The notes under the pieces are model-generated. The model was given only the letters and a program-made list of their open reading frames with translations. It ran no database searches and was not told the origin of the DNA. Source: a virus. From it: a DNA stretch of 64,000 nucleotides. The stretch is taken from positions 1 to 64,000 of the IMG/VR virus record IMGVR_UViG_3300031857_000105, one strand, 5' to 3'. Positions within the stretch are counted from its first letter, which is position 1. Every line of letters begins with the position of its first letter. Of the stretch, positions 24,068-48,957 are shown one piece after another. Position numbers and translations under genes: made by a program.

Positions 24068-24086
24068 AACCGTAGAAATATAAAAA

Positions 24087-24094
24087 GATAAATA
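24087..24094 (+). promoter_or_regulatory. Late promoter before the 3424-residue adhesin
   Basis: GATAAATA ends 20 bases before the ATG at 24115, in the 47-base gap between the two largest genes. The leader is short, with an AGAGGA ribosome site. Confidence 0.7.
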
Positions 24095-24114
24095 CTATCA
24101 GAGGATGACAAAAA

Positions 24115-33100: not shown

Positions 33101-34389
33101 CAACCGCACAAGGCCGTACAAGAGTTGTTAATAATCAACTTTCTGAAATTAGAATGATTGAGCCTGGCAGCGGTTATCCACGTGGTAATGTAACCGCAAC
33201 AAGTACAACAAGTACTGGTACAATTACCGTTGATAGTACAATTAATTTAATAGCAAATCAACCAATTGTGTTTAATACTACAGTACATGGTAGTGTGGGC
33301 GGAATAACTCCAGGAGTATACTACTATGTCAAAGGTACACCGACAAGTACTACATTCCAAATATCCACAACACCTGGCGGATCAATATTTGCATTGACTT
33401 CGGCAACTGTTAGCGGAGTGACATACTTTGCCGGCCCAATTATTACTCAAACAGATCCTAACAAAGTTAATACTGCACCATTGGTTGCACGTATTGGTAA
33501 TGGTGCGTTAGGCAATCCAAGTTTTGCACACCGAGGCATTGCTAATACTACAGCAACCGCTAGTTATCAAGGTGACGGATATGCCGATTTGTATCAAGTT
33601 GGTACGTATATCAACGTAAGTGGATTATTTGACATTCCAAAACCTGGATGTAACGTTGTATTCTATAGCATTACTGGAACAAGTCGTTGGTATAAGCTAG
33701 TTAGCGTAACTAACGTGTTAGGTATCCCAGGAAACTACACAGCTACATTCCAGATTAATCCAGGACTTTCAACATTGTTAGCACCTGCACACAATGATTT
33801 AATTACAACAAATCTACAGTATAGTAACGTTCGTTTAACAGGACATGACTTCTTGTATATTGGAACTGGCGGATTCACTGCAACAAATTACCCGTATGTT
33901 GATGCAACTAAAGCAGTTCAAGCAAATCAACAGTTTGCTACCGGTGGCGGTCGAGTGTTCTTTACAAGTACTGACCAAGACGGTAACTTTAACGTAGGTA
34001 ACTTGTTTGGAGTTCAGCAGTCAACTGGTACTGCCACATTGAACGCTAGTGCGTTTAACTTGTCAGGACTACAGAGTTTGACACTTGGCTCGGTAAGTTT
34101 AGGAGTTGGCTCAGCTACAATTTTCCAGTTTAGTTCAGATCCGTATTTTACAGCTAATAGTGATGGTGTTGTACCTACACAGAAGGCTATTAAAGCGTAT
34201 ATTACAGCACAAATTGGTGGCGGTCAAAGCTCGCTGAACGTAAATACTATTACATCAGGACAGATATACATTGCTGGAAATCAGATAAGTAATACGAATA
34301 ATGTTCAAATTTACGTAGCAAGTAAAATGTTATTTACAGGTGGAATTGACGGAGCACCTGTTGCTCTTGCATTCTTTGGACAGAGATAA
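24115..34389 (+). CDS. Giant modular adhesin (3424 aa), paralogue of the preceding gene
   Basis: The largest gene in the window. The N-terminus (EFKLGRIKFVYRGTW) and the CBM5/12-like repeats (about 10-310, with another near 495-535) match the 3100-residue protein. So do the beta-helix (IVYVASSGTDAIG, IYLKTGTYNEYGPIVVP), the IWC/VWCTG-SN-A segment with YYSYAGYMAEYGGRIRA, and the C-terminus (FFTSTDQDGNFNVG, VVPTQKAIKAYI). It has at least four copies of a roughly 60-residue domain with G-M-x-(I/L)-x-G-G-x-x-x-x-x-T-x-I, then GSG-(S/T)-(S/T)-W. BNR-like blades (YGNGRFVALASDG, YGQGLFVAVATSS) are present, with no LamG-like domain. It is probably a long tail fibre or baseplate-anchored adhesin. The role is inferred from modules and context. 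Confidence 0.75.
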   Translation: MAEFKLGRIKFVYRGTWTANRSYNVDDVVTNGGKTYICVIGHTSTNTTAGFATDLAGGVGITKWNLIADGTTWRNNWASTTYYNLGDIVLWGGTVYVCKTAHTSQVYLEDDQSKWDLFSAGFKWLGAWATSTRYKVRDFVYYGGSTYVCNTQHTSASTNASGLENDISKWDIFNQGVTYLGNWSGSSVRYKLNDVVKFGADLWICTAYHTSTGTSIDTGNFATFVNGFEFEGSWSASNEYQEGDVVTYGGYTYTAIQNSGASDPKTPSTQTAYWKVFTSGLVYAGEWNSSTSYLIGNVVTLGSYTYVATADNAASKPPTLTATFTGSITGTALTTSAPTGTITVGMTITGGTVSAGTTIVSGSGSSWVVNNSQAVSSASLTGIITNPNWGQLSSGIRWAAAPNTTYTNVASSNLIATGSGSPTFTVTRSSTNYSVVIGSTAGTGYTVNDTLKILGNVLGGATPGNDLVVKVATITGGGATGPIGTVTVVTGYASTWKTGITYVIGDAVYYGNSSYICISAHIGSTSVNDPISDTTATYWNILASGADSGALTTQGDMVYYGVNGPTRLPIGSDGQVLRVDGNQPSWKYYGELQNIVYVASSGTDAIGNGQGLTLDKPWKTVGYACKQVEDGYQNRNAGLILQINKQFMMKEVNNYILTQYSFNVTGTASSGNTFVTGGTSTTSQVTTASMYYGMPITFSAATGGITVGTTYYVNTIPNSTTFTISDAYQSGITKTVGSSSAVASTASFAYVQSKAERDTGTVIDGIVFDLTHGGNLYTITATQAYFSTLTSYITTGTRQQAPVFAGALSYLKDILFPAVMSNSAPANNYQTIRSISVGDRAIQNISGVTTSDVESGSVARIQSLLGVITTSLSTGTYGNAPLLNRPNTTIYLKTGTYNEYGPIVVPQDTAIVGDELRSTIVQVAGPATYLGTDKPKTAAALNRLKTLLPDLISNTPITPTTTGTLFPNTKTQVTNLPVGDTGNTTAVNLVVNNTKIVQDMFSAGGVITGPTNPNYPNGLPYEPAISTPAVTGYNTSYLANYGDGVTLIRANYQYIKDEIVAFLNTDPTLTGAEQWVNYSSTYQAETKRDLGFILDAICYDMTYGSNSQSLIVGSSYYSLNTPQLFAPYLAGVLSSLNRLSTVIGQIVTKANVTESVGNTTTQNITGTAGSAAAAAFAQARVADILYWINNGTPDTSAATFTGSTSGTTLTVSGVSGTIKIGQIVTGGTIAAGTYITAGSGTSWTISVSQSATATGSTLDITPITSGAYALASTANKASFDAVQARAAEIAADATSWVAKFFQNESPIVSLTTRDAGYVVQALAYDLLFGSNFYSIQTGRSYNRLVSSVATLHSSLADSTYGAIGFVGERVKILASNGAVVQTNTVIDEMVAQIYGQPTNTATFNGTINGTQLVVNSAVTGTIAVGMQLTGTGIAPGTSIISGSGTTWLLNYNQSVSSTTTTIVNVSTTVTLNGQTFSNILTAGTTEGFVPGLAITITGALISNLVACTYYIKQVLSSTQFTVSESYLGSTFVINSNATGAMTAVVYGIYSGLGLTTDITASGTAIPVTTATTSTNLITITSNAGMIVDMPIVFTGLPANITTTATDITSSSITLGATVSSLGVVVGQKVWFTGFTPQATGTSSSIVSNQVYYVKTASASEITIAATLGGTALTLANATGLSLTATFNTAGGLVNGLQYWINSVTVGTYPAAGTTITVTESYKSGTAFVITDTVSGMSATAQVGMATDQGINQKITNGTVAPWNNPTGTYKSTNGYNNTLSTINGAEIIRANKNFLANELVAYILSQYVATVTTTAQDGTITCSGAHNLIVGDPVVFSGTIFDGQIFAEIVYWVLSTPTTNTFTITITQPGKGPQLVKTLAGASGSMTVSYYMTPTKCIRDAESYIEGLVYDLTVTGNYKATRFVQLYLSAQAGSITNNLFHLRNGTGLRNMTLNGMTGALTLPNALGTRRPTAGSYSSLDVGFGPTDSSVWISVRSPYTQNLTLFGSGCSGMKIDAALHSGGNKSIVANDYTTIISDGFGVWCTGSNALTELVSVFAYYSYAGYMAEYGGRIRATNGNSSYGTYGVIAEGIDSYEIPLYGRLNNRANPAYVTNVVTDGTDEILRIEFENAGSHYSNAIPTVNGAGYNIVTIQDEFRDSSVFETRLVDLNNGQGIGGSNYLTASNVAQTGTVGTITIANSDIQLSSAYVGMRIQLIAGTGVGQFANIIGYAQSSKLANIIRPNFATLTITTNNTTVFTVASTATMYVGQPIYLGAAIGGLNTETVYYVSTTSFSSTQFRVSTTAVGAAAGTGNVSLTATSATPAVTTASIIVGTTLTVGTLSSGVIYPGMLLSGGSVLPNTYIVANISGSGAGSTWTVSVSQNLSSTALTGTVSVPVYEAGWDHVVPGTTIQPLLDATSGYIIEPALSFTAPGFTSTAITMTAAAATTWAGLAFGQGTFVATSNATGVTSTAKTTDGITWAAGGALPTDASATWSAVEYGGGQNATATAIVGGIGGSGAILTAVLGSGNTAGQIIGITVVNGGYNYTTPPTIVITDATGAGATATARVLNGSIRAVDMIITGSLYANPIITVVTSSISSITAATWGSGYYAAPIVTIEPPFTATGWSSGGAVTAGNYYSAVDNTVSPNVTNYYLASGSGTTFSTTKPTFTNAVYGKSGFGAPGVFSTGFGTNVTLTYVGTLPVATANTNTNAAGYGVISYTVSQTGYGYATTPTITVTDPNAAFLAISTATSSAAYSTDQGANWSATGGTTGKTNLNALAYGNNLYLAVGGTSSASAVSLSGSLTGTWSDRSADITTNSSGYSAIAYGAGVFCAIGGTVSSFTAADPTKWYVGDSLTSKTWVDIAYGNGRFVALASDGTLQYTVNWQTKNWTTGPFAANNTWQTVSNNPLSANGVTTWKNISYGQGLFVAVATSSQAVAISPDGLNWTYYATGMPSSSNWTGLTFGNPIDATLGSVPTWVAVSNTSGKISTRIQTGATAQGRTRVVNNQLSEIRMIEPGSGYPRGNVTATSTTSTGTITVDSTINLIANQPIVFNTTVHGSVGGITPGVYYYVKGTPTSTTFQISTTPGGSIFALTSATVSGVTYFAGPIITQTDPNKVNTAPLVARIGNGALGNPSFAHRGIANTTATASYQGDGYADLYQVGTYINVSGLFDIPKPGCNVVFYSITGTSRWYKLVSVTNVLGIPGNYTATFQINPGLSTLLAPAHNDLITTNLQYSNVRLTGHDFLYIGTGGFTATNYPYVDATKAVQANQQFATGGGRVFFTSTDQDGNFNVGNLFGVQQSTGTATLNASAFNLSGLQSLTLGSVSLGVGSATIFQFSSDPYFTANSDGVVPTQKAIKAYITAQIGGGQSSLNVNTITSGQIYIAGNQISNTNNVQIYVASKMLFTGGIDGAPVALAFFGQR
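25078..31290 (+). repeat. Four dispersed copies of a 60-residue domain
   Basis: Copies lie at about 25078-25270, 27706-27897, 28312-28510 and 31090-31290. Each has a hydrophobic Thr-rich strand, G-x-I-x-x-G-M-x-(I/L), GG-T/S-V-(S/A)-(A/P)-(G/N)-T, SGSG-(S/T)-(S/T)-W-x-(V/I/L), and then a Q-(A/S)-V-S-S-like strand. A weaker relative lies near 16130-16290 in the preceding gene. The type is widespread in phage fibre proteins. Confidence 0.6.
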
Positions 34390-34415
34390 TTTAAAACAAA
34401 TTGGAGAAAACATAA

Positions 34416-34769
34416 ATGGCAACAGGAATTTTATATACAGGTACACTAACCTCAACAACGGCAACGACTGCCTACGTAGTACCAAGCACAACTTATAGCG
34501 TAGTTAATGTAAGTTTTACAAACACAGGAACTTCAGCCGCTACTATTCGATTGTATATTGGTGCAAGTTTAGGAACAGCTGGTTCAGTAACAGGTAGTCT
34601 TGTACCAAGTGAAGCAATTGAATATGATACTACTATTGCTCCTAAGGGTGTTTTTGAAAGAACGGGCCTAGTCTTAAGTAGTGTTTCAGGTGCAAAGTAT
34701 ATTACAGTTTATGCATCAACTGGTAACGTAAACGTAAACATTTACGGCATTGAAACATCAACAGTTTAA
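34416..34769 (+). CDS. Small beta-sandwich virion protein, paralogue 3
   Basis: 117 residues, all beta, Thr/Ser/Val-rich. YSVVNVSFTNTGTSAATIRLYIG, LVPSEAIEYDTTI and then a GAKYITVYAS strand and final NVNVNIYG follow the layout of the proteins at 5814 and 14018. It has its own GGAG site, 26 bases after the giant adhesin. Position and fold suggest a small fibre- or tail-associated subunit. No known enzyme motif is present. Confidence 0.6.
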   Translation: MATGILYTGTLTSTTATTAYVVPSTTYSVVNVSFTNTGTSAATIRLYIGASLGTAGSVTGSLVPSEAIEYDTTIAPKGVFERTGLVLSSVSGAKYITVYASTGNVNVNIYGIETSTV

Positions 34770-34787
34770 CATACAAGAGAGATAATA

Positions 34788-35906
34788 ATGGCACGTTATA
34801 ATACAATTATTCCAACAGCGACAGCGGCATCGGCTACGTCTATTACTTCGCCAAATTCAGGAGCTTTGGTTTCATTTACAGGAACCACATATTCTGTAAG
34901 TATTGGTGATCCTGTTTTGTTTTCCGGCCTATCGCAAATTTTTTATAATGCTGCCAGCGGAACAATAACTTTAACTTTTACCAGTGTGGGAGCTGGAGTA
35001 TTTGTTGGCCCAGGGGCTAGCGGTACTACAAGCCAATTACTAACAACTGGTTCCACGGTTACACTTTACTCTGACGGAACTAACTGGGTAGTACTCGGCG
35101 CCAGTGGCGGCCCAATATCAGGAAGCACTGGTTCATTTAGCGGTAACGTTACACTTAGCGGTACAACACCAACATTAAACTTAAACAATACTGCACCAAC
35201 TATTGCAACTAACAACTCTGGAAGTACTGCAAGTTTATTTGATAGCAATGCTACAACGGTAAATGCCTTTGGTGCGGCAACAACAATAACTGTTGGTGCA
35301 ACTACAGGTACCTTAAACTTACGTAATACCACAATCACTGCCGCCAATGCTACTACTCTTAATTTAAACGGTACTAGTCCTAGTATAGTTACTAGCAGTA
35401 CTGGTACAGGAAGTGTGTTTAATACTAACATTGGAACAGGAAACTTATTCGGATCTGCTACAACGGTTAACCTTGGCACTGGTGGTACAACTATTACCAT
35501 AGGTGCTAGCAGTAGTGGTACAGCTACTATAAGATTAACAACGGCTAGTTCAACAACTAGTAACGGAGCATTAGTTGTTGCCGGCGGTGTTGGAGTTGCA
35601 GGACAAGTTACCTGTGCAACACTAGTTGAAACTTCAAGTATTGCATTTAAAGAAAATGTACAACCATTAACAAATGCGTTAGACGTAGTTATGCAATTAA
35701 TGGGTGTTACATATGATCGTAAAGACAATAAGCGTCACGAAGCTGGTTTAATTGCAGAAGAAGTATTTAAATTTGCTCCTGAATTAGTTAGTTTAGATGC
35801 CGATGGCAAACCATACGGTATTCAATACACTAAGTTAGGCGCATACTTAGTTGAATCAATTAAAGTTTTAAAACAAGAAATTGATTTTTTAAAGAATAAG
35901 GAATAA
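34788..35906 (+). CDS. Tail fibre with C-terminal S74 intramolecular chaperone
   Basis: 372 residues. Residues 1-110 are a beta cap; 110-260 are shaft repeats of short hydrophobic/Thr strands (LNLNNTAPTIATNNSG, FGAATTITVGATTGTLNL). The end (about 283-372) is a peptidase S74-type chaperone: SSIAFKENVQPL, then YDRKDNKRHEAGLIAEEV, P-E-L-V and a final helix. In endosialidase-type chaperones a Ser and a Lys five residues later make the cleavage dyad; Ser283 and Lys288 have that spacing here. Self-cleavage just before Ser283 is predicted after trimer folding. It lies between small structural genes with a GAGAG site. The chaperone call is strong; the receptor is unknown. Confidence 0.85.
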   Translation: MARYNTIIPTATAASATSITSPNSGALVSFTGTTYSVSIGDPVLFSGLSQIFYNAASGTITLTFTSVGAGVFVGPGASGTTSQLLTTGSTVTLYSDGTNWVVLGASGGPISGSTGSFSGNVTLSGTTPTLNLNNTAPTIATNNSGSTASLFDSNATTVNAFGAATTITVGATTGTLNLRNTTITAANATTLNLNGTSPSIVTSSTGTGSVFNTNIGTGNLFGSATTVNLGTGGTTITIGASSSGTATIRLTTASSTTSNGALVVAGGVGVAGQVTCATLVETSSIAFKENVQPLTNALDVVMQLMGVTYDRKDNKRHEAGLIAEEVFKFAPELVSLDADGKPYGIQYTKLGAYLVESIKVLKQEIDFLKNKE

Positions 35907-35910
35907 AAAC

Positions 35911-36342
35911 ATGGCAAATTTACAAGCAACAGATGTCGGCGGTACACTAACCTCGCTAAGGTTAGAAAATACAACTACTGTTAGTAAAACTTTACAATTA
36001 GCCGATCGAGATAGAGTAGTATCGTGTAACAACACATCATCAATTACAATTACTGTACCAGCAGACGGCACTGTTGCCTTTCCGGTAGGGTCAGTTGTAT
36101 ATATTAATAAAGTAAACAATGGGGCTGTACAACTAGCAGCCGAAGGTGGTGTGTCATTATCACGAACTGGTACACTTGCTCTAAATGAAGAAATGTTTGT
36201 AAGAAAAAGAGCTGCCAATACTTGGATAGTAGTAGATTCTGCAACTGCACTTACTTACACCGGCGGTACAGTTTCACAAGCTGGATCATTTACTGTAAGA
36301 TCATTCACCTCTGCAGGTGCTAGTACATTTACTATATCATAA
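35911..36342 (+). CDS. Small tail-fibre-tip-like protein
   Basis: 143 residues. It starts 4 bases after the S74 fibre gene with an AAGGAA site. Beta strands such as SSITITVPADGTVAFPVGSVVYI and a following W-I-V-V resemble the end modules found in the glycine-rich tip protein and in phage tail-tip proteins (the T-V-T-V-P-x(5)-F-P-x-G-x-x-(I/V) pattern). A distal fibre or receptor-binding role fits this module and its neighbours. No catalytic residues are evident. Confidence 0.55.
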   Translation: MANLQATDVGGTLTSLRLENTTTVSKTLQLADRDRVVSCNNTSSITITVPADGTVAFPVGSVVYINKVNNGAVQLAAEGGVSLSRTGTLALNEEMFVRKRAANTWIVVDSATALTYTGGTVSQAGSFTVRSFTSAGASTFTIS

Positions 36343-36361
36343 TTAATTTCACGAGGTCAAC

Positions 36362-37360
36362 ATGCCAATAATTAAAAGTTTAAGAAAAAAACACAATCCA
36401 AAAGAAAATGAAAACGTTTCTTACTCGCCGCCTTTAAAGATAACAGGCGGCGACAAGGTTTATACTGCGGGCGGATATACAGTACACATGTTCTTAACGC
36501 CAGGGCCGCACCAATTAAAAATTGAACCAGTCAAAGATCTTCCAAAAGAAATGATGGGTTTAATTGTAGATAGAACTTTAGAAGTGTTAATGGTGGGCGC
36601 AGGTGGTGCAGGTGGCGGTTATTCCGGTGGTGGTGGTGGTGGCGAAGTATTATACATTAGTCGAAATGTAGGAACTGGAACATTCCCGTTAAACGTTGCT
36701 CCGGCTACTAGTGGAGATAACGGTGCGTGGTCTGCTGCCAAGTGCGGAACAGGTACAACTGGTTTTGGAGAAACTGCTAAAGGCGGTGGCTCAGGAAGAG
36801 CATCAGACGATAGTATTCCTGCGAACCCTTACACTCCCGTTGCTAACGGTGGCGCAGGATCTTCAAGAACTGCTGGATATTTTGGACAACAAGGAACTTC
36901 AGTAGGTACTGGTGTTACTAGACATGGCGGCTTTAGAGGCGGCCAAGAAAACAGCCCAGCTAACGATGCTCCTAACTATCCAGGTCACGGTGGTGGTGGT
37001 GCTGGACAAAGTATTACTGGCAATACAGGTGGTGGTGGTAACGGTGGTGCTGGCGGCAGCGGAGTTTCATATAGTCTAACAGGAACTGCATTATTCTGGG
37101 GCGGTGGCGGCGGCGGCCAAACATACTACGGAGGCCAAGGCGGTGCAGGTGGTGCAGGTGGTGGTGCTGCCGGATCAGGTGGTAACGGCGGTAACAGCGG
37201 CGGCTCTGGATTAAATCCAGGTGGCAGTACTAATGCTGCCAGCTCAGGTGCGAGCGGCGGTGCAAATACTGGTGGTGGTGGTGGCAGTGGAAACGGACAA
37301 AACGGCAGTACTGGCGGCGGTGGCGGCTCCGGTGTTGTTATAGTTAGATATCCAACATAA
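36362..37360 (+). CDS. Glycine-rich tip adhesin-like protein
   Basis: 332 residues. A basic N-terminus (about 1-35) is followed by a beta segment (YTVHMFLTPGPHQLKI, LEVLMVGAGGAGG) and then more than 200 residues of Gly runs broken by short variable loops (such as NPYTPVANGG and GYFGQQG). It ends SGVVIVRYPT. This is the glycine-rich domain layout of phage tip proteins and resembles the polyglycine sandwich of T-even gp38 adhesins, whose loops bind receptors. Homology to gp38 cannot be claimed from composition alone. It ends the surface-protein block and is followed 6 bases later by a small unknown gene. A GAGG ribosome site is present. Confidence 0.65.
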   Translation: MPIIKSLRKKHNPKENENVSYSPPLKITGGDKVYTAGGYTVHMFLTPGPHQLKIEPVKDLPKEMMGLIVDRTLEVLMVGAGGAGGGYSGGGGGGEVLYISRNVGTGTFPLNVAPATSGDNGAWSAAKCGTGTTGFGETAKGGGSGRASDDSIPANPYTPVANGGAGSSRTAGYFGQQGTSVGTGVTRHGGFRGGQENSPANDAPNYPGHGGGGAGQSITGNTGGGGNGGAGGSGVSYSLTGTALFWGGGGGGQTYYGGQGGAGGAGGGAAGSGGNGGNSGGSGLNPGGSTNAASSGASGGANTGGGGGSGNGQNGSTGGGGGSGVVIVRYPT

Positions 37361-37366
37361 CCTGCT

Positions 37367-37774
37367 ATGCCCCTTTACAAGACTAACAAAGATATTTTCA
37401 AAGACTTTGGAGAAGAAGTCTTTGATTATCGATTCAATAAAGAAACTCGATATATTTTAAAAACCAAAGACTGGGATTATAAACGAGAATTAAAAGTCGA
37501 AGATGTTGAAATATGGGAAGTATTGTTTGAAGATAGTTGGGGATTAGGTGTATATGCGGCTTATGAACCTTACGCTGAATTTTACATGATAAAATATGCA
37601 GATAGCACAGGTAATCATGTGTACGACACACATTATGGCGCAGGCGCACAAAATAAAATTATGCAATTTATGGTTTCAAACAACATACCTTTTAATCTAC
37701 ACGATGTATATGTTGATGAAGATAAAACCTGGTTGTACTTTTCAGAATCTGAAAAGAAAATTATTATTACTTAA
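37367..37774 (+). CDS. Unknown protein, paralogue of the minus-strand gene at 38240
   Basis: 135 residues, rich in Tyr, Trp, Asp and Glu. The core W-D-Y-K-R-E-L-K-V-E-D-V-E-I-W-E-V-L, then G-V-Y-A-A-Y-E-P-Y-A-E-F-Y, matches the minus-strand protein at 38240-38584 (WDYSQSITIDDVKIWEEL, IYSSWNPYVEFYLL). Function is unknown. It may be a small fibre-assembly factor or an accessory protein linked to the oxygenase cluster. It starts 6 bases after the glycine-rich gene with little room for a ribosome site. Confidence 0.6.
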   Translation: MPLYKTNKDIFKDFGEEVFDYRFNKETRYILKTKDWDYKRELKVEDVEIWEVLFEDSWGLGVYAAYEPYAEFYMIKYADSTGNHVYDTHYGAGAQNKIMQFMVSNNIPFNLHDVYVDEDKTWLYFSESEKKIIIT

Positions 37775-37798
37775 CATAGAATTTACGGAGTTTACAAA

Positions 37799-37984
37799 AT
37801 GAACGAATCATTATTAGATTTAAATGACACAGATTTAGTCAGCGGTTATAGAGAAAATGTAACAAAGTTTTTAGCAGAACAGTCTAAAGATATATCAGAA
37901 CAAAATATAGAAGAACGAGATAGATTAAATCTTCTTCTTAGTACGTATATGGCTGAAATAGTTAAAAGAAATATTGTACTATAA
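37799..37984 (+). CDS. Small helical unknown protein
   Basis: 61 residues, acidic and fully helical by composition, ending in TYMAEIVKRNIVL. An ACGGAG site lies ten bases before the ATG, which supports translation. Its stop is directly followed by the next ATG. No family is recognised. Confidence 0.5.
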   Translation: MNESLLDLNDTDLVSGYRENVTKFLAEQSKDISEQNIEERDRLNLLLSTYMAEIVKRNIVL

Positions 37985-38245
37985 ATGATGGAAGATAATA
38001 ATTTTTGTATTCCGTTGTTTGACAATGAAAAATTATTATCTCCAGCGTTTATTAAATCAAAAAGGTGGATTGTAAATACTTGCAAAGAAGAAATTTTAGC
38101 AAGCTCTAGCAAACACGTATGTTTTGAAAATCTTTTTCAAAAAAAGTTTAAAGCAGTTTTAACACCAAGTTGCTCCACCGGATGGCAGCAGATTGAATTT
38201 ACAAATCAAAAAGACAAGTCTATTTTTCTACTGACCTGGTTATAA
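37985..38245 (+). CDS. Small unknown protein with four cysteines
   Basis: 86 residues beginning MMEDNNFCIPLF. Cys residues are at positions 8, 33, 46 and 59. The end, GWQQIEFTNQKDKSIFLLTWL, is beta-like. It starts directly after the preceding stop (TAA-ATG), so translation is likely coupled; the second Met (37988) is an equal candidate. Its stop shares the palindrome TTATAA at 38240-38245 with the stop of the convergent minus-strand gene. No family is recognised. Confidence 0.45.
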   Translation: MMEDNNFCIPLFDNEKLLSPAFIKSKRWIVNTCKEEILASSSKHVCFENLFQKKFKAVLTPSCSTGWQQIEFTNQKDKSIFLLTWL

Positions 38246-38584: not shown

Positions 38585-38592
38585 GATTAAAG

Positions 38593-39249
38593 ATGCCCTC
38601 AAATGTATTTAATAAATATTTTCGTATGCAAACTCCAAACAGAATACACTCATGGTTTTCAACTACTATATATTATGAAGAAATTCCAAATGAGCCACTA
38701 GTATTAAAATTAACTAGTAAGGCTCTGGAATTAAAAAAAATATACACTAGTAGTGCTACTGCTTGGCGATGCAGTACATTTAACACTTTAGATTTATACA
38801 ATTGGGAAACAGACCAAGATCCTAGTGTATTAGAATTGATAGAAAAGTGTGCTAGAAATGTAGGAGATTTTGCTCAATCTTTTTCTTCTGTCCCGCTAGA
38901 TAATTATGAATTAGCTTGTACAGGATTTTGGTTTAATGTTGCAGAACCCGGTGCATACCAAGAGTATCATCAACATGCTAGTAGTCATTTTAGCCTTTGC
39001 TACTACTTGAACGTGCCAAAAAAATCTGGAAATATTGTTTTTAAAAGTTTTGAGTCAATGTTTGACATGTGCCCGTTACCTATACCGGATCAGTACGTAA
39101 ATACAAATTCTTATAAAACAGTATCTTATACACCATCAGCGGGATCACTTTTAATTTTTAGATCAAATGTATTACATATGGTTGAACAAAATCTTAGCGA
39201 TGAGAATCGAATCAGCATTTCTATGAACTTTAATCTAATTAAAAAATGA
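38593..39249 (+). CDS. 2OG-Fe(II) oxygenase, TIGR02466-like (array gene 1)
   Basis: 218 residues. The C-terminal half has the double-stranded beta-helix pattern GFWFNVAEPGAYQEYHQHASSH, then SGNIVFKSF, then SLLIFRSNVLHMVEQNLSDENRISISMNF. Candidate metal ligands are His126/His128 (HQH) and His195. The 67-residue gap from His128 to His195 is the same in array genes 3 and 7. The substrate is unknown. An alternative ATG at 38626 lies 7 bases after AATAAATA (38611-38618), would clear the divergent minus-strand gene, and places the protein start nearer the family start. The longer form is given conservatively. It overlaps the next gene by ATGA. Confidence 0.75.
   Translation: MPSNVFNKYFRMQTPNRIHSWFSTTIYYEEIPNEPLVLKLTSKALELKKIYTSSATAWRCSTFNTLDLYNWETDQDPSVLELIEKCARNVGDFAQSFSSVPLDNYELACTGFWFNVAEPGAYQEYHQHASSHFSLCYYLNVPKKSGNIVFKSFESMFDMCPLPIPDQYVNTNSYKTVSYTPSAGSLLIFRSNVLHMVEQNLSDENRISISMNFNLIKK
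38611..38618 (+). promoter_or_regulatory. Possible late promoter at the head of the oxygenase array
   Basis: AATAAATA lies inside the longer form of array gene 1 and 7 bases before an in-frame ATG at 38626. If active it would start the array transcript close to that ATG. The sequence around it is very AT-rich, so a chance match is quite possible. Confidence 0.35.
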
Positions 39250-39914
39250 TACATTTTCCTGCAATTTGCGTAGATAATTTTTACAGTGACCCGGATCGTA
39301 TTAGAGAATGGGCACTATCTCTTGACTATAGCCCAGCACCAAACGGAAACTGGCCTGGAAAGCGATCAGAAAAATTACACTTAGTTGATCCTAAATTTTT
39401 TCAAGATTTTTGTAGTAAGATATTTTCTTTGTATTTTGATATGGATAGCACTGATATAAAATGGGTAGTGCATACACAATTTCAGCTTATCGAACCGTAC
39501 GACCAAGATCCTAATTCAAAAAAAAATACTGGTTGGATACACTACGACGATGATACTATATTTGGTGGTCTTATATATTTAAATCCAGACATAGATACAA
39601 ATTGCGGAACGTCTGTATTTAGACAAGATAGAGAATCTATATCAAATGCTGATTTTAAAGAAGCAAAGCAAACTTTTTATATGTCAAAACGATATGCAAA
39701 TTACGAAAATGTATTAACTGAGCATAACAATAATTTTACAGAAACTATAGTTTTTAAAAATTTATACAATAGATTTATAAGTTTTGACGGCGAAACAGCG
39801 CACAAGGCAAATAGTTTTTTTACAGAAATTCCTAGACTGACTCAAGTGTTCTTCGTAGCTAAGTGTGACACTAATTCAACTTGGCCAATTGCTAGGCATC
39901 AGAGGTATCTTTAA
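39246..39914 (+). CDS. 2OG-Fe(II) oxygenase-like protein, DUF6445-like (array gene 2)
   Basis: 222 residues. The N-terminus ICVDNFYSDPDRIREWAL is typical of this oxygenase-like group. Candidate ligands are His99 and Asp101 in HYDDD and His186 in ETAHKANS; PRLTQVFFV follows. GGLIYLNPD is the strand after the first ligands. It starts within the ATGA shared with the previous stop, so translation is coupled. Substrate is unknown; related proteins are common in marine phages and bacteria. The DUF assignment is from memory of the pattern and is less sure than the fold. Confidence 0.7.
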   Translation: MIHFPAICVDNFYSDPDRIREWALSLDYSPAPNGNWPGKRSEKLHLVDPKFFQDFCSKIFSLYFDMDSTDIKWVVHTQFQLIEPYDQDPNSKKNTGWIHYDDDTIFGGLIYLNPDIDTNCGTSVFRQDRESISNADFKEAKQTFYMSKRYANYENVLTEHNNNFTETIVFKNLYNRFISFDGETAHKANSFFTEIPRLTQVFFVAKCDTNSTWPIARHQRYL

Positions 39915-39915
39915 A

Positions 39916-40539
39916 ATGGATGTTATAATGGAATTCACTACTCCTGTTGGAATGTTTTATTCTAGCAAGGATCTGGGCCAGCGCACATATGATGAAGTTT
40001 TAAAAATCATAGACAATCAAAATGAAGATGTGTTTGTTTACCAAAATATTTCAAAAACTACACCAGACAATTTACATTTAAGACCAGAGTTTTCAGAATT
40101 TTTAAAATTTCTCGAAGATAAAACAAAAGCATTTTCTGAAGAAGTTTTAGGTGTTCGAATGACTGACTTATCCATAAGCGGCATGTGGAGTAACGTACAT
40201 ACTCCCGGTTCAAAACATCACAATCACCAGCATCCAAATTCTTTTATTTCAGGTGTGTATTATCCGGTTTGCCCTGACTGCGAAGATATTGGAAATATTA
40301 TTTTTGTAGATCCAAGGCAAGCAAAAAATATGGTCCAGGCAGATTTTTTTAAATCGTCTTGCATATCAAATAGAAATATTTGGGTAACTCCTGAGTCTGG
40401 ATTATTATTAATTTTTCCTAGCTGGCTTGAGCACGGAACTGATCCGTTTATAGCTAACCCGGAAGATAAACGAGTATCTATAAGTTTTAACTATCAACTA
40501 AAAAAATGTGATCAAAAAACAATGAGAATTTATGAATAG
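39916..40539 (+). CDS. 2OG-Fe(II) oxygenase, TIGR02466-like (array gene 3)
   Basis: 207 residues from the ATG at 39916, chosen because AGAGG lies ten bases before it and because it aligns with array gene 7. Ligand candidates His104/His106 (HQH) and His173 then fall at exactly the same residue numbers as in that gene. Other marks are TTPVGMFYSSKD at the start, SGVYYP after the HxH, and LLLIFPSWLEHGTDPF with R-V-S-I-S-F-N-Y at the end. This is the 2OG-FeII_Oxy_5 layout. The substrate is unknown. It overlaps the next gene by 8 bases. Confidence 0.85.
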   Translation: MDVIMEFTTPVGMFYSSKDLGQRTYDEVLKIIDNQNEDVFVYQNISKTTPDNLHLRPEFSEFLKFLEDKTKAFSEEVLGVRMTDLSISGMWSNVHTPGSKHHNHQHPNSFISGVYYPVCPDCEDIGNIIFVDPRQAKNMVQADFFKSSCISNRNIWVTPESGLLLIFPSWLEHGTDPFIANPEDKRVSISFNYQLKKCDQKTMRIYE

Positions 40540-41158
40540 ACAACTAGTAATCCCAGCAGAAAATTCATTTATAGGATCTTGGTTCTTAGAAGATATGTCT
40601 TTGTGCGACGATATGATACATTACTTTGAAACTTCTCCAGATAAATTAGACGGAGTAGTATATAGAGACGGCCAGCTAATTGTTGACAAATCAGAAAAAG
40701 ACTCAAAAGATATAATGTTAGATTTTAAGGAAGAAATTACAAAACGATATGTTCGAGAACTGCAAAAAGTTTTAGAAATGTACAAAATAAAATATGTAAG
40801 ATCGGATAGTGTTGGAAAGTTTGGTATAGAATCTATAAATCTACAAAAATATGGGCCTAATGGCGGATACAAATTTTGGCATGCTGAACGAGCAGACGGC
40901 CATCCACCTAGTGTTTATAGACATTTAGTCTTTATGACATACTTGAATACAGTTAGTGACGAAGGCGAGACAGAATTTTTCTATCAAAAAGTTAAAGTAA
41001 AACCGCAGAAAGGGCTTACGCTAATTTGGCCATCTGACTGGACCCATACGCATAGGGGTATTCCTTCTATGACTCAAACCAAATATATTGCCACGGGCTG
41101 GTTTACTTTCTTAAATAGAACACCGGGTGAAGAAGTACAAGCAGATAAAAATATTTAA
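40532..41158 (+). CDS. Prolyl-4-hydroxylase-like 2OG-Fe(II) oxygenase (array gene 4)
   Basis: 208 residues. Core: INLQKYGPNGGYKFWHAE, with His117 and Glu119 (HxE instead of the usual HxD), then LNTVSDEGETEFFYQKVKVKPQKGLTLIWPSDWTHTHRG with His172/His174, and a Lys-Y-I-A-T-G-W strand whose Lys may bind 2-oxoglutarate. The E-G-G/G-E-T-E-F and P-x-KG-x-x-(L/I)-(I/L)-x-(P)-S/W pattern is that of P4H-type enzymes. It resembles array gene 9 closely. Its start lies inside the end of array gene 3, which suggests translational coupling. Protein hydroxylation is the known activity of P4H enzymes; the target here is unknown. Confidence 0.85.
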   Translation: MNRQLVIPAENSFIGSWFLEDMSLCDDMIHYFETSPDKLDGVVYRDGQLIVDKSEKDSKDIMLDFKEEITKRYVRELQKVLEMYKIKYVRSDSVGKFGIESINLQKYGPNGGYKFWHAERADGHPPSVYRHLVFMTYLNTVSDEGETEFFYQKVKVKPQKGLTLIWPSDWTHTHRGIPSMTQTKYIATGWFTFLNRTPGEEVQADKNI

Positions 41159-41169
41159 AGGGAAAAAAT

Positions 41170-41799
41170 ATGGCGAATATGGTTAATGGATTGTTTACTG
41201 GGGAGATTCAACCCTCATCGACAATTTGCGGTTGTATAGCCATATACAAAAATTTATGGCCTAACCCCGATGCAACTGTTGATTTAGTTAATTATCAGTG
41301 TAACGGTTTTGAAGGAGAAGTATTTTATGAGAGAGCAGGTACTGTAGGGTTAGGCGAAAATCAAAGACACAGGACTAACAAAGTGTTGTCTCTTACTAAC
41401 CGAGCAAACTTTAGTGATAATAAAGCACTACAAAGTGTACATAACCAATTTTATATGATGTTATTAGCCACAACAATTCCCTACGCTAGAAAATTTAATA
41501 TTCATGAAGGCTTGTGGCACGAGTCATACAGCATGTTGAGATATGATGTAGGCGAAGAATATAAAGTTCATTATGATTCTTCAAGTAGTATGGGCAGAGT
41601 AATATCAGCAATATGTTATCTTAACGATGATTTTGAAGGTGGCGAATTAGAATTTCCTTACTTTGGTGTTAAAATTAAACCAGAGAAAGGAATGTTAGTA
41701 TTATTTCCATCTAATTTTGCTTATGCACATATATCAAATCCTATTATAACAGGTTCTAAATACGCTCTAGTTACATGGATTAAAGATCGAGAATTGTAA
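41170..41799 (+). CDS. Prolyl-4-hydroxylase-like 2OG-Fe(II) oxygenase (array gene 5)
   Basis: 209 residues. It has the textbook P4H pattern: SMLRYDVGEEYKVHYDSS with His134 and Asp136, LNDDFEGGELEFPYFGVKIKPEKGMLVLFPSNFAYAHIS with His187, then a Lys in GSKYALVTWI as the likely 2-oxoglutarate ligand. All expected residues are present, so it is the best candidate for an active enzyme in the array. It has its own AAAGGGA site after an 11-base gap. The N-terminal part (about 1-95) includes CNGFEGEVFYERAG and may help in substrate binding. Target unknown. Confidence 0.9.
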   Translation: MANMVNGLFTGEIQPSSTICGCIAIYKNLWPNPDATVDLVNYQCNGFEGEVFYERAGTVGLGENQRHRTNKVLSLTNRANFSDNKALQSVHNQFYMMLLATTIPYARKFNIHEGLWHESYSMLRYDVGEEYKVHYDSSSSMGRVISAICYLNDDFEGGELEFPYFGVKIKPEKGMLVLFPSNFAYAHISNPIITGSKYALVTWIKDREL

Positions 41800-41816
41800 A
41801 CTAACAGGAATTAAAT

Positions 41817-42371
41817 ATGGAACATGATTGGATAGTTTGTGACACACTGTATGATCTAGCAGATTGTATAGAAATAAAAAAAACGTGTGTAAAAAACATT
41901 GATGAGAACATTATCGACGGGCCAGCGCACAATACCGTTAAGACATCTGAAGTTAAATTACTAAATTATAGACATGTTAAAGATGCCTTAGAACCTGCTC
42001 ACGAATTTGTGTTGCATATTAATAAAAATTATTTTGGATTAGATATCCATAATGTATGTGACGGAGATGTAGTATTACTTAACACATACGATTCAAAAAA
42101 TAAAGCATCGTACGAATGGCATAAAGATGTAGCGTCCACTACCCAATTGTTTGATTTTAAATTAACAATGTTAATAAATTTATCAGATGGAAATTACGAA
42201 GGTGGAAATTTGCAAATTTTTACCACTGGTGGCGAACAAACAATAGACAGTTTTAAGCAACCCGGAGCCGTGTGCATTATTCCTTCATGGGTTCCTCACC
42301 GAGTAACTAATGTTACTAGCGGAGTAAGAACTACACTTTCTTATTTTTATACTGGACCCAAAATTAGATGA
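41817..42371 (+). CDS. 2OG-Fe(II) oxygenase (array gene 6)
   Basis: 184 residues. YEWHKDVAS gives His102 and Asp104. LTMLINLSDGNYEGGNLQIF is the strand pair typical of 2OG-FeII_Oxy_3-type enzymes. PGAVCIIPSWVPHRVTNVTSGVRTTLSYF gives His161 and a later Arg as the probable 2-oxoglutarate ligand. The motif set is complete. It is preceded by a CAGGAAT site, and its stop overlaps the next start as ATGA. Similar phage enzymes are often annotated as PKHD-type hydroxylases. Substrate unknown. Confidence 0.87.
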   Translation: MEHDWIVCDTLYDLADCIEIKKTCVKNIDENIIDGPAHNTVKTSEVKLLNYRHVKDALEPAHEFVLHINKNYFGLDIHNVCDGDVVLLNTYDSKNKASYEWHKDVASTTQLFDFKLTMLINLSDGNYEGGNLQIFTTGGEQTIDSFKQPGAVCIIPSWVPHRVTNVTSGVRTTLSYFYTGPKIR

Positions 42372-42952
42372 TACAAGATAATAATCATGTAAAACTCTTT
42401 TATAGTTTTCTTGACGAAACTACGTTAGATATTAATGTAAACGATTTAGCTGACTATTGCTATTTTGTTAAAAATAATGATGGTGGCAAAGTGTTGAGCA
42501 ATGTTGGAGGGTGGCAAAGTAGTAATTTAGACGTCACAATACCAGAACTTAGACCTCTAATTACCTGTGTTTTAGAAAGAGCCGAAAGCCTAATCTTAGA
42601 ATACGACTTACCTAGAACTTTTAAAATTGATCCAATTTGGATTAACATTAACGAGAAGTATCACTACAATATGATCCATGAGCATCCGAGGAGTCTGCTA
42701 GCAGGTGTGTTTTACGTAAAGGCACCAAAGGATAGTGGAGATTTAGTTTTTGTAAATCCTATTACAACTATGCAACACTATATTGATCAAACACGGATAG
42801 AAAAATATAATCCATTCAACTCTTATAGTTGGGCAATAGAACCAGCTGACAATACACTAGTAATGTTTCCTTCCTGGGTGCCACACTTTACTCTTCCAAA
42901 TTCTTCAAACGAAGACAGAATCTCAATTGCATTTAACATAAGTGAACGCTAG
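42368..42952 (+). CDS. 2OG-Fe(II) oxygenase, TIGR02466-like (array gene 7)
   Basis: 194 residues. IWININEKYHYNMIHEHPRSLLAGVFYV gives His104 and His106. GDLVFVNP follows. LVMFPSWVPHFTLPNSSNEDRISIAFN gives His173 and the usual Asp-Arg-(I/V)-S-(I/F) end. Layout and numbering match array gene 3 at the key His residues, although the rest of the sequences differ, so the two are old paralogues or were acquired separately. ATGA overlap with the previous gene. Substrate unknown. Confidence 0.85.
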   Translation: MIQDNNHVKLFYSFLDETTLDINVNDLADYCYFVKNNDGGKVLSNVGGWQSSNLDVTIPELRPLITCVLERAESLILEYDLPRTFKIDPIWININEKYHYNMIHEHPRSLLAGVFYVKAPKDSGDLVFVNPITTMQHYIDQTRIEKYNPFNSYSWAIEPADNTLVMFPSWVPHFTLPNSSNEDRISIAFNISER

Positions 42953-42953
42953 T

Positions 42954-43718
42954 ATGTTTGATATTTTTATTAAAAAAAGCGAAGTTATTTTAGATTGTTT
43001 CACAAATGTGGGAACAGTATATGATACCGCTAAAATTAATAATGCTGTACATTTTATACCAGACTGGTGGAAAAATACACCTAAAGTACAAGAAGGGTGG
43101 GCTACTATTAAAAATTGCAAAGCCTTTAAAGATTACTATAAACATGGTATTGTGATCCCTTCTTGGTTTGAAATGGAAATTAGCTTCTTTGGTGAAGATG
43201 GTCCGGACGGAAAAGAAATAGGAATAAAATATTCAAACGACAATGTGGATATAACTAAATCACATAATCATTATCAGTTTGATAAGTTTACTCAACACGA
43301 TGGAAAAAATCTAAAGATAATGTCCCCGTGGGCCTTTAGAACTAAAGAAGATATAAAATTTGTATGGAGTCATCCTGCTTGGAATACTAGAGAGTCTATG
43401 TCCTATCTATCAGCCCTTCCAGGAGTAATAGATTTTAAATATCAGCACCATGTTGCTATTAATTTTTTAATGATTCAGCCAATTGAACCTTTATCAATAA
43501 CTGTTGAACCATTAGAACCTTTAGTAATGTTACACCCTATGACTGAAAAACGTGTTGTAATAAAAAATCATTTGATTTCTGATAATGAATACAAACGATT
43601 ATTTGCTATTCAAGATCTAGTTTTAAAAAGAGATGTCGATGACGAAATTAAAGAATATGATAAGAAAAAATCGCTTACAAAAAAAATAGAGAAAATGTCC
43701 TGTCCTTTTAAATACTAA
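42954..43718 (+). CDS. Conserved phage-type unknown protein within the oxygenase array (array gene 8)
   Basis: 254 residues from the ATG at 42954, one base after the preceding stop. A GTG at 42942 would add only four residues. It is the one array gene with no oxygenase motif. The N-terminal half has VHFIPDWWKNTPKV, TIKNCKAFKDYYKHGIVIPSWFEMEI and a His-rich SHNHYQFDKF. The middle has MSPWAFRTKEDI, and the end is Lys-rich with CPFKY. This resembles uncharacterised phage proteins of the W-W-K-x-x-P type (possibly DUF6065-like; I am not sure). It could deliver or recognise the substrate of the neighbouring enzymes; this is inference from position only. Confidence 0.65.
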   Translation: MFDIFIKKSEVILDCFTNVGTVYDTAKINNAVHFIPDWWKNTPKVQEGWATIKNCKAFKDYYKHGIVIPSWFEMEISFFGEDGPDGKEIGIKYSNDNVDITKSHNHYQFDKFTQHDGKNLKIMSPWAFRTKEDIKFVWSHPAWNTRESMSYLSALPGVIDFKYQHHVAINFLMIQPIEPLSITVEPLEPLVMLHPMTEKRVVIKNHLISDNEYKRLFAIQDLVLKRDVDDEIKEYDKKKSLTKKIEKMSCPFKY

Positions 43719-43719
43719 T

Positions 43720-44352
43720 ATGAGTACTATACCTAACTATCAATTTGAAAACTTTATTGGCATTTTTGACAATGTCATTGATGATAACGATTGTCAACGC
43801 ATAATTGAACACTTTGAATTAGTGCAGTCCTCAAAGTTAAGTATGTCTAGACAACAGATAAATCCTCAAATTAAAAAAAGCCAAAAAGATACAGACAACT
43901 ATTTTTTATCTGGTACTTCTGGATTTGCTAACCCGCAAGTTGAAGATATAATTTCTTCAGCAGACAGTTGGATATTTGAAAATTTAAAAACAGCAGTTTG
44001 GTCTTGTTATAATTTGTATGCAGATAAATTTGGGGTGTTTAACGACTTGGGAAAACATGCAATTTCAGGTTCGATTAAAATACAAAAAACTGAAAAAAGC
44101 CAAGGGTATCACGTGTGGCATTGTGAAAACGATTGTATAAAAACAGGTAACAGAATTGCCTTGGTTATTTTATATCTTAATGATTTAGATGAAGGCGGAG
44201 AAACAGAATTTTTATATCAGTCTTTAAGGATTGCTCCGCGTAAGGGCAGAATGATAATATGCCCTTCAGATTGGACTCATACCCACAGGGGAAATCCTCC
44301 TCTTAAAGATGAAAAATATATAATTACTACATGGATTGAATTTATAGAATGA
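43720..44352 (+). CDS. Prolyl-4-hydroxylase-like 2OG-Fe(II) oxygenase (array gene 9)
   Basis: 210 residues. IKIQKTEKSQGYHVWHCEND gives His134 and Glu136 (HxE). LNDLDEGGETEFLYQSLRIAPRKGRMIICPSDWTHTHRG gives His187/His189, followed by a Lys in DEKYIITTWIEF. It is a clear paralogue of array gene 4, sharing HxE and THTHRG-N/I-P. The N-terminus (FIGIFDNVIDDNDCQRIIEHFE) is the usual start of P4H-like phage enzymes. It begins one base after the previous stop and overlaps the next gene as ATGA. Glu in place of Asp may still bind iron, or may point to changed chemistry. Confidence 0.85.
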   Translation: MSTIPNYQFENFIGIFDNVIDDNDCQRIIEHFELVQSSKLSMSRQQINPQIKKSQKDTDNYFLSGTSGFANPQVEDIISSADSWIFENLKTAVWSCYNLYADKFGVFNDLGKHAISGSIKIQKTEKSQGYHVWHCENDCIKTGNRIALVILYLNDLDEGGETEFLYQSLRIAPRKGRMIICPSDWTHTHRGNPPLKDEKYIITTWIEFIE

Positions 44353-44924
44353 AAGATTTTTTAGAAATCAAAGAAGCTACACCAAGAGATAAATTTAATA
44401 AAATACAAGATTTTATTTTATCAGATTCTTTTCCGTGGTTTTATACTGGCACAACAATAAACAATTCATCAGCTGAAACTAACTTTAGTTTTTTTCATAG
44501 TGCATTTCATTACGAAGATGGCTATTCGTTTATAGGAAAAGACCTTGCTGAATTAGTTACAGAATGTATGGCTACAACTGACGTTAAAATTAATTCTCTT
44601 TTAAGATTACGATTAGGACTTATAACTAGTACACCAAGTCAAGTAGTACACACTCCACACATAGATTTTTCATTCCCTCATTATACAGGTTTACTATATC
44701 TTAACAACACAGATGGTGAAACTTTTTTGTATGATGAAAAATACGATACTAATCTAGATAAAAAAAATTATGATAATTTTGTAAGATCTAAAAAAAATAC
44801 AATCTTAACAAAAACAAACCCGGAAGAAAACAAAATATTTGTATTTGACGGATTATATTATCACGCCAGTTCTAGCCCTAGTAGTCATGATCGAAGAGTA
44901 GTTCTTACATTTAACTATGTCTAA
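44349..44924 (+). CDS. 2OG-Fe(II) oxygenase-like protein (array gene 10)
   Basis: 191 residues. The pattern VVHTPHIDFSFPHYTGLLYLNNTDGETFLY gives His104 and Asp106. IFVFDGLYYHASSSPSSHDRRVVLTFNYV gives His172 and a following Arg pair. The layout fits a compact 2OG-Fe(II) enzyme. The N-terminal SFPWFYTGTT and the core are related to the next gene, so these two are paralogues. It starts within ATGA of the previous gene. Substrate unknown. Confidence 0.72.
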   Translation: MKDFLEIKEATPRDKFNKIQDFILSDSFPWFYTGTTINNSSAETNFSFFHSAFHYEDGYSFIGKDLAELVTECMATTDVKINSLLRLRLGLITSTPSQVVHTPHIDFSFPHYTGLLYLNNTDGETFLYDEKYDTNLDKKNYDNFVRSKKNTILTKTNPEENKIFVFDGLYYHASSSPSSHDRRVVLTFNYV

Positions 44925-45450
44925 TACTATTATAGAAAACAGTTTGGTTTTAACTACGGATCAAAAAAACTATATTGATAAAAATATTTTATCTAATAAT
45001 ATTCCTTGGTTTTTTAGTGAAGATTCTGTATATGCAGATCAAAAAAATTACTTTTCACATGTGCTAATTCATAGGATAGAAGATAAAAAAAATTTAGAAA
45101 TTAATTCTCCTCACACACTTTTTTTTGTAGAAATCTTAAAAAAAATCTGCATAGACAACGATGTTACATGTTCTGAAATTCTTAGGGCATCTCTAAACAC
45201 AACATTTGCAAATAATGATACAACTGGAACAGTACACGTAGATCATGAATTTGATCACATGAATTGCATAGTATATTTGTCGTCCGTCGACAATGCAGGA
45301 ACACTTATTTTTGAAAATGATCAAAAAACTATAGCATACAAATCTAATTGTATCAAGTACAGTTATTTGTTGTTTCCAGGATTATATCACGCTCAATTAT
45401 TCCCGCCGCCGGGTACAAGAAGAACAGTTTTTGTAGCAACTTTTAAATAA
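44917..45450 (+). CDS. 2OG-Fe(II) oxygenase-like protein (array gene 11)
   Basis: 177 residues. GTVHVDHEFDHMNCIVYLSS gives His107 and Asp109, and YLLFPGLYHAQLFPPPGTRRTVFVATF gives His158 and an Arg pair. NNIPWFFSEDS near the N-terminus matches SFPWFYTGTT in the preceding paralogue. It is shorter than that gene because a loop between the two ligand strands is missing. It overlaps the previous stop by 8 bases and ends 7 bases from the convergent Nudix gene. It is the least complete enzyme of the array, and activity is uncertain. Confidence 0.65.
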   Translation: MSNTIIENSLVLTTDQKNYIDKNILSNNIPWFFSEDSVYADQKNYFSHVLIHRIEDKKNLEINSPHTLFFVEILKKICIDNDVTCSEILRASLNTTFANNDTTGTVHVDHEFDHMNCIVYLSSVDNAGTLIFENDQKTIAYKSNCIKYSYLLFPGLYHAQLFPPPGTRRTVFVATFK

Positions 45451-45456
45451 TTGGTA

Positions 45457-45906
45457 TTATATTAAATCGACTATATCAAATACAGTTTGTAATTTAGTAC
45501 GAATTGTTTTGTTTGAAAAACTATTACGAAGCCCCTGGTGTAAGGGCTTTGGTGCGTAATCAATAGTTGACCATGCCCAAGCACAATGCTCATCACTTAG
45601 TACAGGAATAAATTCATCTTGTATTACACACAAATATGTGTGAAAATTAAAAACTTTGTCGTTACTAACAAATGTTTCTAACGGAATTGTTTTGATTATT
45701 ACTGGCGAAAATCCTATTTCTTCTTGAACTTCACGCTGTAAACCTTGCCACGGATTTTCGTGTTGTAAGTTTGTCCCCCCAACAAGTCCCCAAGTGCCTG
45801 TATGTTTGCCTTGAGATTTTTGTAACATTAAAAATCTCCGTGTTGATTTAGCGTAGAATAATGCTCCGCTACAAACAATTTTATCTGTTAAAGATCTAGT
45901 CTCCAT
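45457..45906 (-). CDS. Nudix hydrolase
   Basis: 149 residues. A complete Nudix box spans Gly44 to Phe66 (G-x5-E-x7-REV-x-EE-x-GF), with Glu59, Glu62 and Glu63 as metal ligands. Nudix enzymes hydrolyse nucleoside diphosphates linked to another group; the substrate cannot be read from the sequence. It overlaps the end of gp15 by 19 bases on the same strand, so it belongs to the gp14-gp15 transcript. A nucleotide hydrolase in a neck-gene operon is unusual. T-even NudE-type enzymes exist, but a direct link to them is not shown. Confidence 0.92.
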   Translation of the reverse strand: METRSLTDKIVCSGALFYAKSTRRFLMLQKSQGKHTGTWGLVGGTNLQHENPWQGLQREVQEEIGFSPVIIKTIPLETFVSNDKVFNFHTYLCVIQDEFIPVLSDEHCAWAWSTIDYAPKPLHQGLRNSFSNKTIRTKLQTVFDIVDLI

Positions 45907-48940: not shown

Positions 48941-48945
48941 AATGA

Positions 48946-48953: not shown

Positions 48954-48957
48954 GTAA

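Follow-up and report, generated by a model that had tools for sequence, protein, structure and literature searches.

The stretch of DNA analysed here (the window) comprises positions 1 to 64,000 of IMG/VR virus record IMGVR_UViG_3300031857_000105 and contains eleven consecutive open reading frames at 38593-45450 (g1-g11, Table 1), ten of which are predicted to encode distinct 2-oxoglutarate (2OG)-Fe(II) oxygenases, each with a full set of predicted active-site residues. Cyanophages and other jumbo-phage contigs have related arrays that again lie next to fibre genes, often together with the family of g8 (phrog_7084), the gene that does not encode an oxygenase. The explanation we prefer, tentatively, is that the array serves post-translational tailoring as a module of a jumbo-myovirus tail-fibre locus, travelling with the fibres and hydroxylating the fibre or tip proteins of the phage itself.

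Composition of the oxygenase array

All the array genes except g8 were assigned to 2OG-Fe(II) oxygenase families with the hidden Markov models (HMMs) of Pfam and PHROG. PF13759 was matched by g1, g3 and g7 (75, 82 and 82 bits; cut-off 27), PF13640 by g4, g5, g6 and g9 (43, 58, 39 and 48 bits; cut-off 27) and DUF6445 by g2 (42.5 bits; cut-off 24); g10 and g11, which Pfam supports weakly or not at all, both match phrog_274 (1e-34 and 3e-24). The product of g11, the weakest member, was modelled with AlphaFold2 (AF2; pLDDT 92, pTM 0.89), and the best PDB matches of the model in Foldseek were the 2OG-Fe(II) oxygenase 6n1f and the human HIF prolyl hydroxylase PHD2 (E ~5e-6, probability 1.00). The double-stranded beta-helix fold was assigned to g1-g7 and g9-g11: by Pfam matches above cut-off for g1-g7 and g9, by AF2 and Foldseek for g11, and for g10 by phrog_274 together with a profile comparison (hhalign) in which the phrog_274 set matched the prolyl 4-hydroxylase (P4H)-like set at 95.5%. 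The initial annotation of this DNA, which had described ten oxygenases of several subfamilies among eleven genes and had proposed an HMM search and structure prediction as checks, is thereby borne out, the subfamilies being PF13759/phrog_81, DUF6445/phrog_1644, PF13640/phrog_61 and phrog_274.

An HxD or HxE pair with a distal histidine is present in g2, g4, g5, g6, g9, g10 and g11, and HxH takes its place in g1, g3 and g7, as in their solved relative 3bvc, so that the metal chemistry of these three may differ. The initial annotation had called them HxH TIGR02466-like; they match PF13759/phrog_81. The predicted 2OG-binding residue after the distal histidine is arginine in g1, g2, g3, g6, g7, g10 and g11 and lysine in g4, g5 and g9. 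Of the 45 window frames of 150-300 amino acids (aa), 19 contain a loose HxD/E/H...H...R/K pattern, which therefore proves little alone, so that the assignment is carried by the HMM and fold results. Protein prolyl hydroxylases head the PDB relatives of g4, g5, g6 and g9, and the P4H-like proteins match 3itq and 5hv0 at 3e-14 (A2 profile); the prolyl 4-hydroxylase label given to g4, g5 and g9 denotes this similarity in sequence.

Many members of such arrays are hidden by the names of their families in the databases. The name 'DNA endonuclease V' of phrog_274 (g10 and g11) was rejected, as the g11 model is prolyl-hydroxylase-like and does not show the endonuclease V fold. The family of g2, phrog_1644, is named 'minor coat protein' in PHROG and is very probably a 2OG oxygenase family, judging from W-x-H-x-D...H...R, invariant in 10 relatives, and from its profile match to phrog_274 (hhalign, P 4e-5). 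Members of the 'ferrochelatase' family phrog_2954 carry an invariant HxDR...HWR (e.g. L116 10208-10978 and L121 6702-7322), have weak PDB hits and are fused to a P4H-like domain in S-SCSM1_248 and L096; they are probably oxygenases as well, although hhalign gave no signal between phrog_2954 and the P4H-like proteins. If so, the pairing of ferrochelatase with 2OG genes reported in pelagiphages (PMC9599517) may represent two adjacent oxygenases.

The genes are co-directional and tightly packed beside the fibre-tip genes, as the initial annotation had stated, with eight tight junctions out of ten rather than the seven it had counted: genes overlap by 4 bases (ATGA) at three of these and by 8 bases at two, and a 1-base gap separates them at the other three. 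The two remaining junctions are gaps of 11 and 17 bases. The most likely start of g3 is ATG 39916, preferred to GTG 39865, which leaves a 1-base gap after g2. An assembly artefact or a chance array was ruled out, because L004, from another metagenome, is identical to window 42452-53715 (the right half) at 11263 of 11264 bases, and because the related locus L005 has genes 1-10 in the same order. GC content is 32% in window 38000-46000 and 38% in the rest of the window; the AT-richness of the array fits acquisition or a different constraint. Two small paralogue-like proteins (DWDY...IWE.L...GIY/GVY...EFY) flank the start of the array, at 37367-37774 (+) and 38240-38602 (-), the latter encoded opposite to g1 and overlapping its first 10 bases; both genes are kept in L005. 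A lone extra phrog_81 oxygenase lies outside the window but on its contig, at G000 71132-71788 (L112 from 8157).

The ratio of non-synonymous to synonymous substitutions (dN/dS) between the window and L005 is 0.03-0.19 for g1-g10, showing purifying selection on nine of the ten oxygenases and on g8. In a 55-protein tree, g1, g3 and g7 fall into three deep clades of phrog_81, and each pairs first with its L005 counterpart; tandem duplication was therefore rejected for these genes. Low dN/dS and separate clades indicate that these three are separate enzymes under selection and not recent copies.

The non-oxygenase gene g8 is predicted to encode a dUTPase-fold protein. A model built with 25 relatives (AF2 pLDDT 83.7, pTM 0.83) matched the dUTPase/dCTP deaminase structures 2zdc and 2yzj in Foldseek (3e-4, probability 1.00, low TM ~0.3), and this fold led to the rejection of g8 as an eleventh oxygenase; by sequence profile, the match to dUTPase has an E of 0.07. 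The string GVIDFKYQ resembles, by eye, the established motif III of dUTPases, and the other catalytic motifs are not recognisable. The family is highly diverged, with the motif-III aspartate lost in several members, and DUF6065 was matched by 5 of the 25 relatives. As a dUTPase-fold partner of the oxygenases, g8 might be non-catalytic or have been repurposed.

The tail-fibre locus and the phage lineage

The array is the right-hand end of a longer conserved segment. From 14188 to 44924 the window is ~80-83% identical in nucleotide sequence to record G002, unbroken over 30 kb that include the array together with the genes of the giant fibres and the fibre tip. Past the array, a NUDIX gene is 70% identical and the sheath stabiliser gene 66% (their proteins 79% and 49%), and it is only there that synonymous sites are saturated. 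The shared identity and its drop past the array are read as the trace of an exchangeable block of fibres and array, a cassette that supports the fibre link. The two giant fibre proteins in it share several homologous stretches.

Table 1. Genes of the oxygenase array and of the linked fibre cassette, with their coordinates in the window
Feature	Coordinates	Strand	Support
g1: predicted 2OG-Fe(II) oxygenase, PF13759/phrog_81, HQH126...H195...R	38593..39249	+	Pfam 6.8e-21; phrog_81 2e-38; dN/dS 0.13 vs L005
g2: predicted 2OG oxygenase, DUF6445/phrog_1644, HYD99...H186...R	39246..39914	+	DUF6445 9.7e-11; phrog_1644 1.2e-39
g3: predicted oxygenase, PF13759/phrog_81, HxH...H173...R	39916..40539	+	Pfam 3.7e-23; phrog_81 5e-37
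g4: prolyl-4-hydroxylase-like, PF13640/phrog_61, HAE117...H174...K	40532..41158	+	Pfam 1.2e-10; phrog_61 2.6e-43
g5: P4H-like, PF13640/phrog_61, HYD134...H187...K	41170..41799	+	Pfam 1.9e-15; phrog_61 1.6e-32
g6: predicted oxygenase, PF13640/phrog_61, HKD102...H161...R	41817..42371	+	Pfam 1.9e-9; dN/dS 0.03
g7: predicted oxygenase, PF13759/phrog_81, HEH104...H173...R	42368..42952	+	Pfam 4.7e-23; phrog_81 3e-40
g8: phrog_7084, dUTPase/dCTP-deaminase-like fold (predicted), non-oxygenase	42954..43718	+	phrog_7084 5.5e-14; AF2; Foldseek
g9: P4H-like, PF13640/phrog_61, HCE134...H189...K	43720..44352	+	Pfam 3.7e-12; phrog_61 1.2e-43
g10: predicted 2OG oxygenase, phrog_274, HID104...H172...R	44349..44924	+	phrog_274 9.7e-35; weak PF13640
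g11: predicted 2OG oxygenase, phrog_274, HVD107...H158...R; absent from L005	44917..45450	+	phrog_274 2.6e-24; AF2; Foldseek
Fibre cassette linked to the array: two giant fibre proteins, S74 fibre protein, glycine-rich phrog_2295 protein, small genes	14765..38245	+	identity to G002; phrog tail-fibre matches
Giant fibre protein, 3100 aa	14765-24067	+	fibre cassette
Giant fibre protein, 3424 aa	24115-34389	+	fibre cassette
S74 fibre protein	34788-35906	+	fibre cassette
Glycine-rich phrog_2295 protein	36362-37360	+	fibre cassette

The capsid protein encoded in the window is 68-71% identical to those of jumbo phages of 349-469 kb, which head the cultured matches, and 85-88% identical to those of the jumbo-group records G006, G014, G015, G016 and G037. 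On this evidence, the window belongs to a jumbo-phage (myovirus) lineage and not to a cyanophage of the marine T4-like type, the phages with which it had initially been compared. The gene psbA, which would point to a cyanobacterial host, was found in none of the 16 records searched, all of them fragments. The T4-type late promoter octamer TATAAATA was found 0 times in window 1-64000, with 9.4 expected, and expression timing is therefore unreadable from it; in related loci the octamer is rare, some of them having it.

Related arrays in other phages

Runs of similar length occur elsewhere: ten oxygenases in syn9 (gp45-gp54, with Pfam support for most members) and in L107, nine in S-CREM1, and eight, up to the edge of the locus, in L206. 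In L129-L131, twelve oxygenases form two blocks, of nine and three, with four phrog_7084 copies between them (in tandem, L129 7836-10693). Among the 80 viral loci closest to g9, the run length is 1 in 43, 2 in 19, 3-4 in 7 and at least 5 in 11, these lengths being lower bounds since many loci are short. The HMMs used for counting were built iteratively, which can blur subfamily labels (phrog_61 versus its subset) and leaves the total of oxygenases as the sturdier figure. A related capsid gene is present in 26 records, six of which match any of the three main oxygenase families. Arrays this large are thus recurrent but a minority; the size, first described as unusual, is uncommon without being unique.

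That phages carry multiple 2OG genes is well known, and the gene order of syn9 and Syn10 has long been public in GenBank. Published counts range from 0-5 2OG genes per cyanophage (PMC3037559) to ten in S-CREM1 (PMC9964418) and 24 in S-SCSM1 (PMC9602691); pelagiphages are reported to have co-located groups (PMC9599517), and S-SSM6a a ten-gene halogenase cluster (PMC7824862). The open-access passages and searches consulted gave no account of long contiguous arrays, of the companionship of phrog_7084 or of placement at the fibre locus. Such arrays make up a recurring phage module that has gone unrecognised, in part under wrong names, in several cultured marine phages.

A close parallel in layout is found in the Kyanoviridae syn9 (gp45-gp54) and Syn10 (CPUG_00119-00128), the latter with the same genes, all annotated as hypothetical. 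As in the window, a run of ten 2OG genes (2OG/JmjC-type there) adjoins phrog_7084 with tail-fibre assembly genes nearby; unlike the window, these phages have two flavin halogenases (one of them VirX1) as well as genes for a JmjC and a phrog_2954 protein, and most member lineages are non-orthologous. The window thus has one trait of the cyanophage halogenase-oxygenase island of the syn9/S-SSM6a type, namely a 2OG run with phrog_7084 beside fibre genes, and the array lacks the other, the flavin halogenase; no halogenase HMM match was obtained in the window or in contig 63000-76777. In S-CREM1 (SCREM1_72-80), nine contiguous oxygenases follow phrog_7084, and a halogenase and a collagen-like protein lie upstream, unlike in the window; the parts seen of the S-CREM1 paper count its 2OG genes without mentioning an array (PMC9964418). 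S-SCSM1 has a similarly large and diverse repertoire, which is scattered, the longest annotated run seen being four. The S-SSM6a cluster likewise includes several 2OG enzymes, and no counterparts of its carbamoyltransferases, methylase, halogenase and phosphatases (PMC7824862) were found in the window array. Among pelagiphages, Mosig has six consecutive 2OG genes and HTVC023P-type phages have groups too (PMC9599517), fewer than in the window and, in the Mosig stretch, without phrog_7084.

The array genes of G015 (L107) and G037 (L206), both jumbo-group records, match those of syn9 at ~30-57% identity, which indicates the passage of one type of array between phage groups. The window array is another type with its own composition, its nearest kin being L128 and L092 (g1 47%, g2 44%, g5 60%, g8 42%). 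Arrays adjoin tail or fibre genes in contigs L107, L206, L129, L128, L158 and L139 and in syn9, S-RIM44, P-TIM40, Sf-FP1, Sf-FR1 and Mosig. The family of g8 is present in cultured S-RIM44, Sf-FP1, Sf-CH3, Sf-FR1, Syn10, syn9, S-CREM1 and P-TIM40, and in seven of these eight (the seven regions inspected) it lies directly before, or 1-2 genes from, an oxygenase run. At the head of the array in the cultured phages examined, it has a flavin halogenase as its neighbour, which in Syn10 is VirX1. This link was made via PHROG and S-RIM44 gp163; tblastn with g8 against phage records gave no match.

Possible substrates of the array

The multi-step modification role suggested in the initial annotation is plausible. 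We infer that the substrate is the fibre: by hydroxylation or some other oxidation, the enzymes would modify particular side chains in the fibre or tip proteins of the phage itself, each enzyme with its own site, and since g1, g3 and g7 lie in separate clades they are not idle duplicates. Such modification would alter folding, stability or receptor contact, and joint swapping of array and fibres would keep enzyme and substrate matched. Several points weigh against this. Adjacency and shared block ancestry are not function, and it is from two small genes, with proteins 58% and 70% identical, that the left edge of the cassette is drawn. The window contains no collagen-type GXY repeats, by which a collagen-type substrate was rejected. 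The syn9-type array, common to Kyanoviridae and jumbo-phage contigs, is not bound to one fibre type; the L181 array is an exception in lying between carbamoyltransferase genes; and the halogenases of many cyanophage arrays would fit a small-molecule or glycan pathway too.

Such a pathway, in which the oxygenases (with halogenases in the cyanophage versions) act serially on a small molecule, a peptide or a host surface sugar, is the next possibility, and a less probable one. Flavin halogenases adjoin arrays in syn9, Syn10, S-CREM1, S-RIM44, P-TIM40, Sf-FP1, L107, L129 and others. In Syn10, CPUG_00131 (L223 8997-10589) encodes VirX1 (6qgm) directly beside phrog_7084 and the ten-gene oxygenase run, and VirX1 is reported to halogenate many small aromatics (PMC8407142); the halogenase/carbamoyltransferase/2OG cluster of the jumbo cyanophage S-SSM6a has been interpreted as a pathway for a secondary metabolite or a capsule (PMC7824862), and the carbamoyltransferases around the L181 array point the same way. 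In the window, however, no halogenase, carbamoyltransferase, glycosyltransferase or carrier protein was found among the array genes, and an enzyme that would make the scaffold is absent from the array.

It is unlikely that the targets are host proteins, such as ribosomal proteins and EF-Tu, or components of host defence, modified during infection. Bacterial and eukaryotic relatives are established to hydroxylate ribosomal proteins, EF-Tu and signalling proteins (reviews: PMC4295552 and PMC4543633), and the diversity of the enzymes fits several targets, but neither the position in the structural/fibre region nor the co-segregation with fibre genes points to the host. Hypermodification of nucleotides or DNA, with the oxygenases and the dUTPase-like protein acting on pyrimidines, is less likely still. 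The predicted fold of g8 with its motif-III-like GVIDFKY, a deoxynucleoside monophosphate kinase gene 4 kb downstream of the array and the membership of TET/JBP enzymes among 2OG oxygenases would be in line with it; against it stand the divergence of the g8 family, the distance of the array from replication genes and the best oxygenase matches, which are P4H/PHD-like or PF13759, a Tet_JBP match being weak and confined to g5 (Pfam, E 0.005). Finally, a main effect on host 2OG and nitrogen signalling, proposed for cyanophage oxygenases (PMC3037559), is very improbable, as 2OG drawdown needs no ten diverged active sites, uncoupled turnover is slow, and purifying selection acts on each of g1-g7, g9 and g10.

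The 2OG oxygenases of phages have been tallied as auxiliary metabolic genes scattered over the genome, whereas the arrays seen here, of up to ten or twelve genes, recur at the tail-fibre locus in two phage groups, hidden by misleading database names. The module gives a pathway context to VirX1, a structurally solved viral halogenase, and is testable in the cultured phages Syn10, syn9 and S-CREM1. A broader and rather doubtful extension is that unrelated phage families share or rebuild a fibre-hypermodification module, of at least 10 non-redundant oxygenases, to which halogenases and a dUTPase-fold partner are often added, which would chemically diversify the receptor-binding tip and travel with it; if true, this would be a phage counterpart of the heavily modified ribosomal peptides, on a virion protein. 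If the fibre is the target of the array, phages would have a new way to alter receptor binding.

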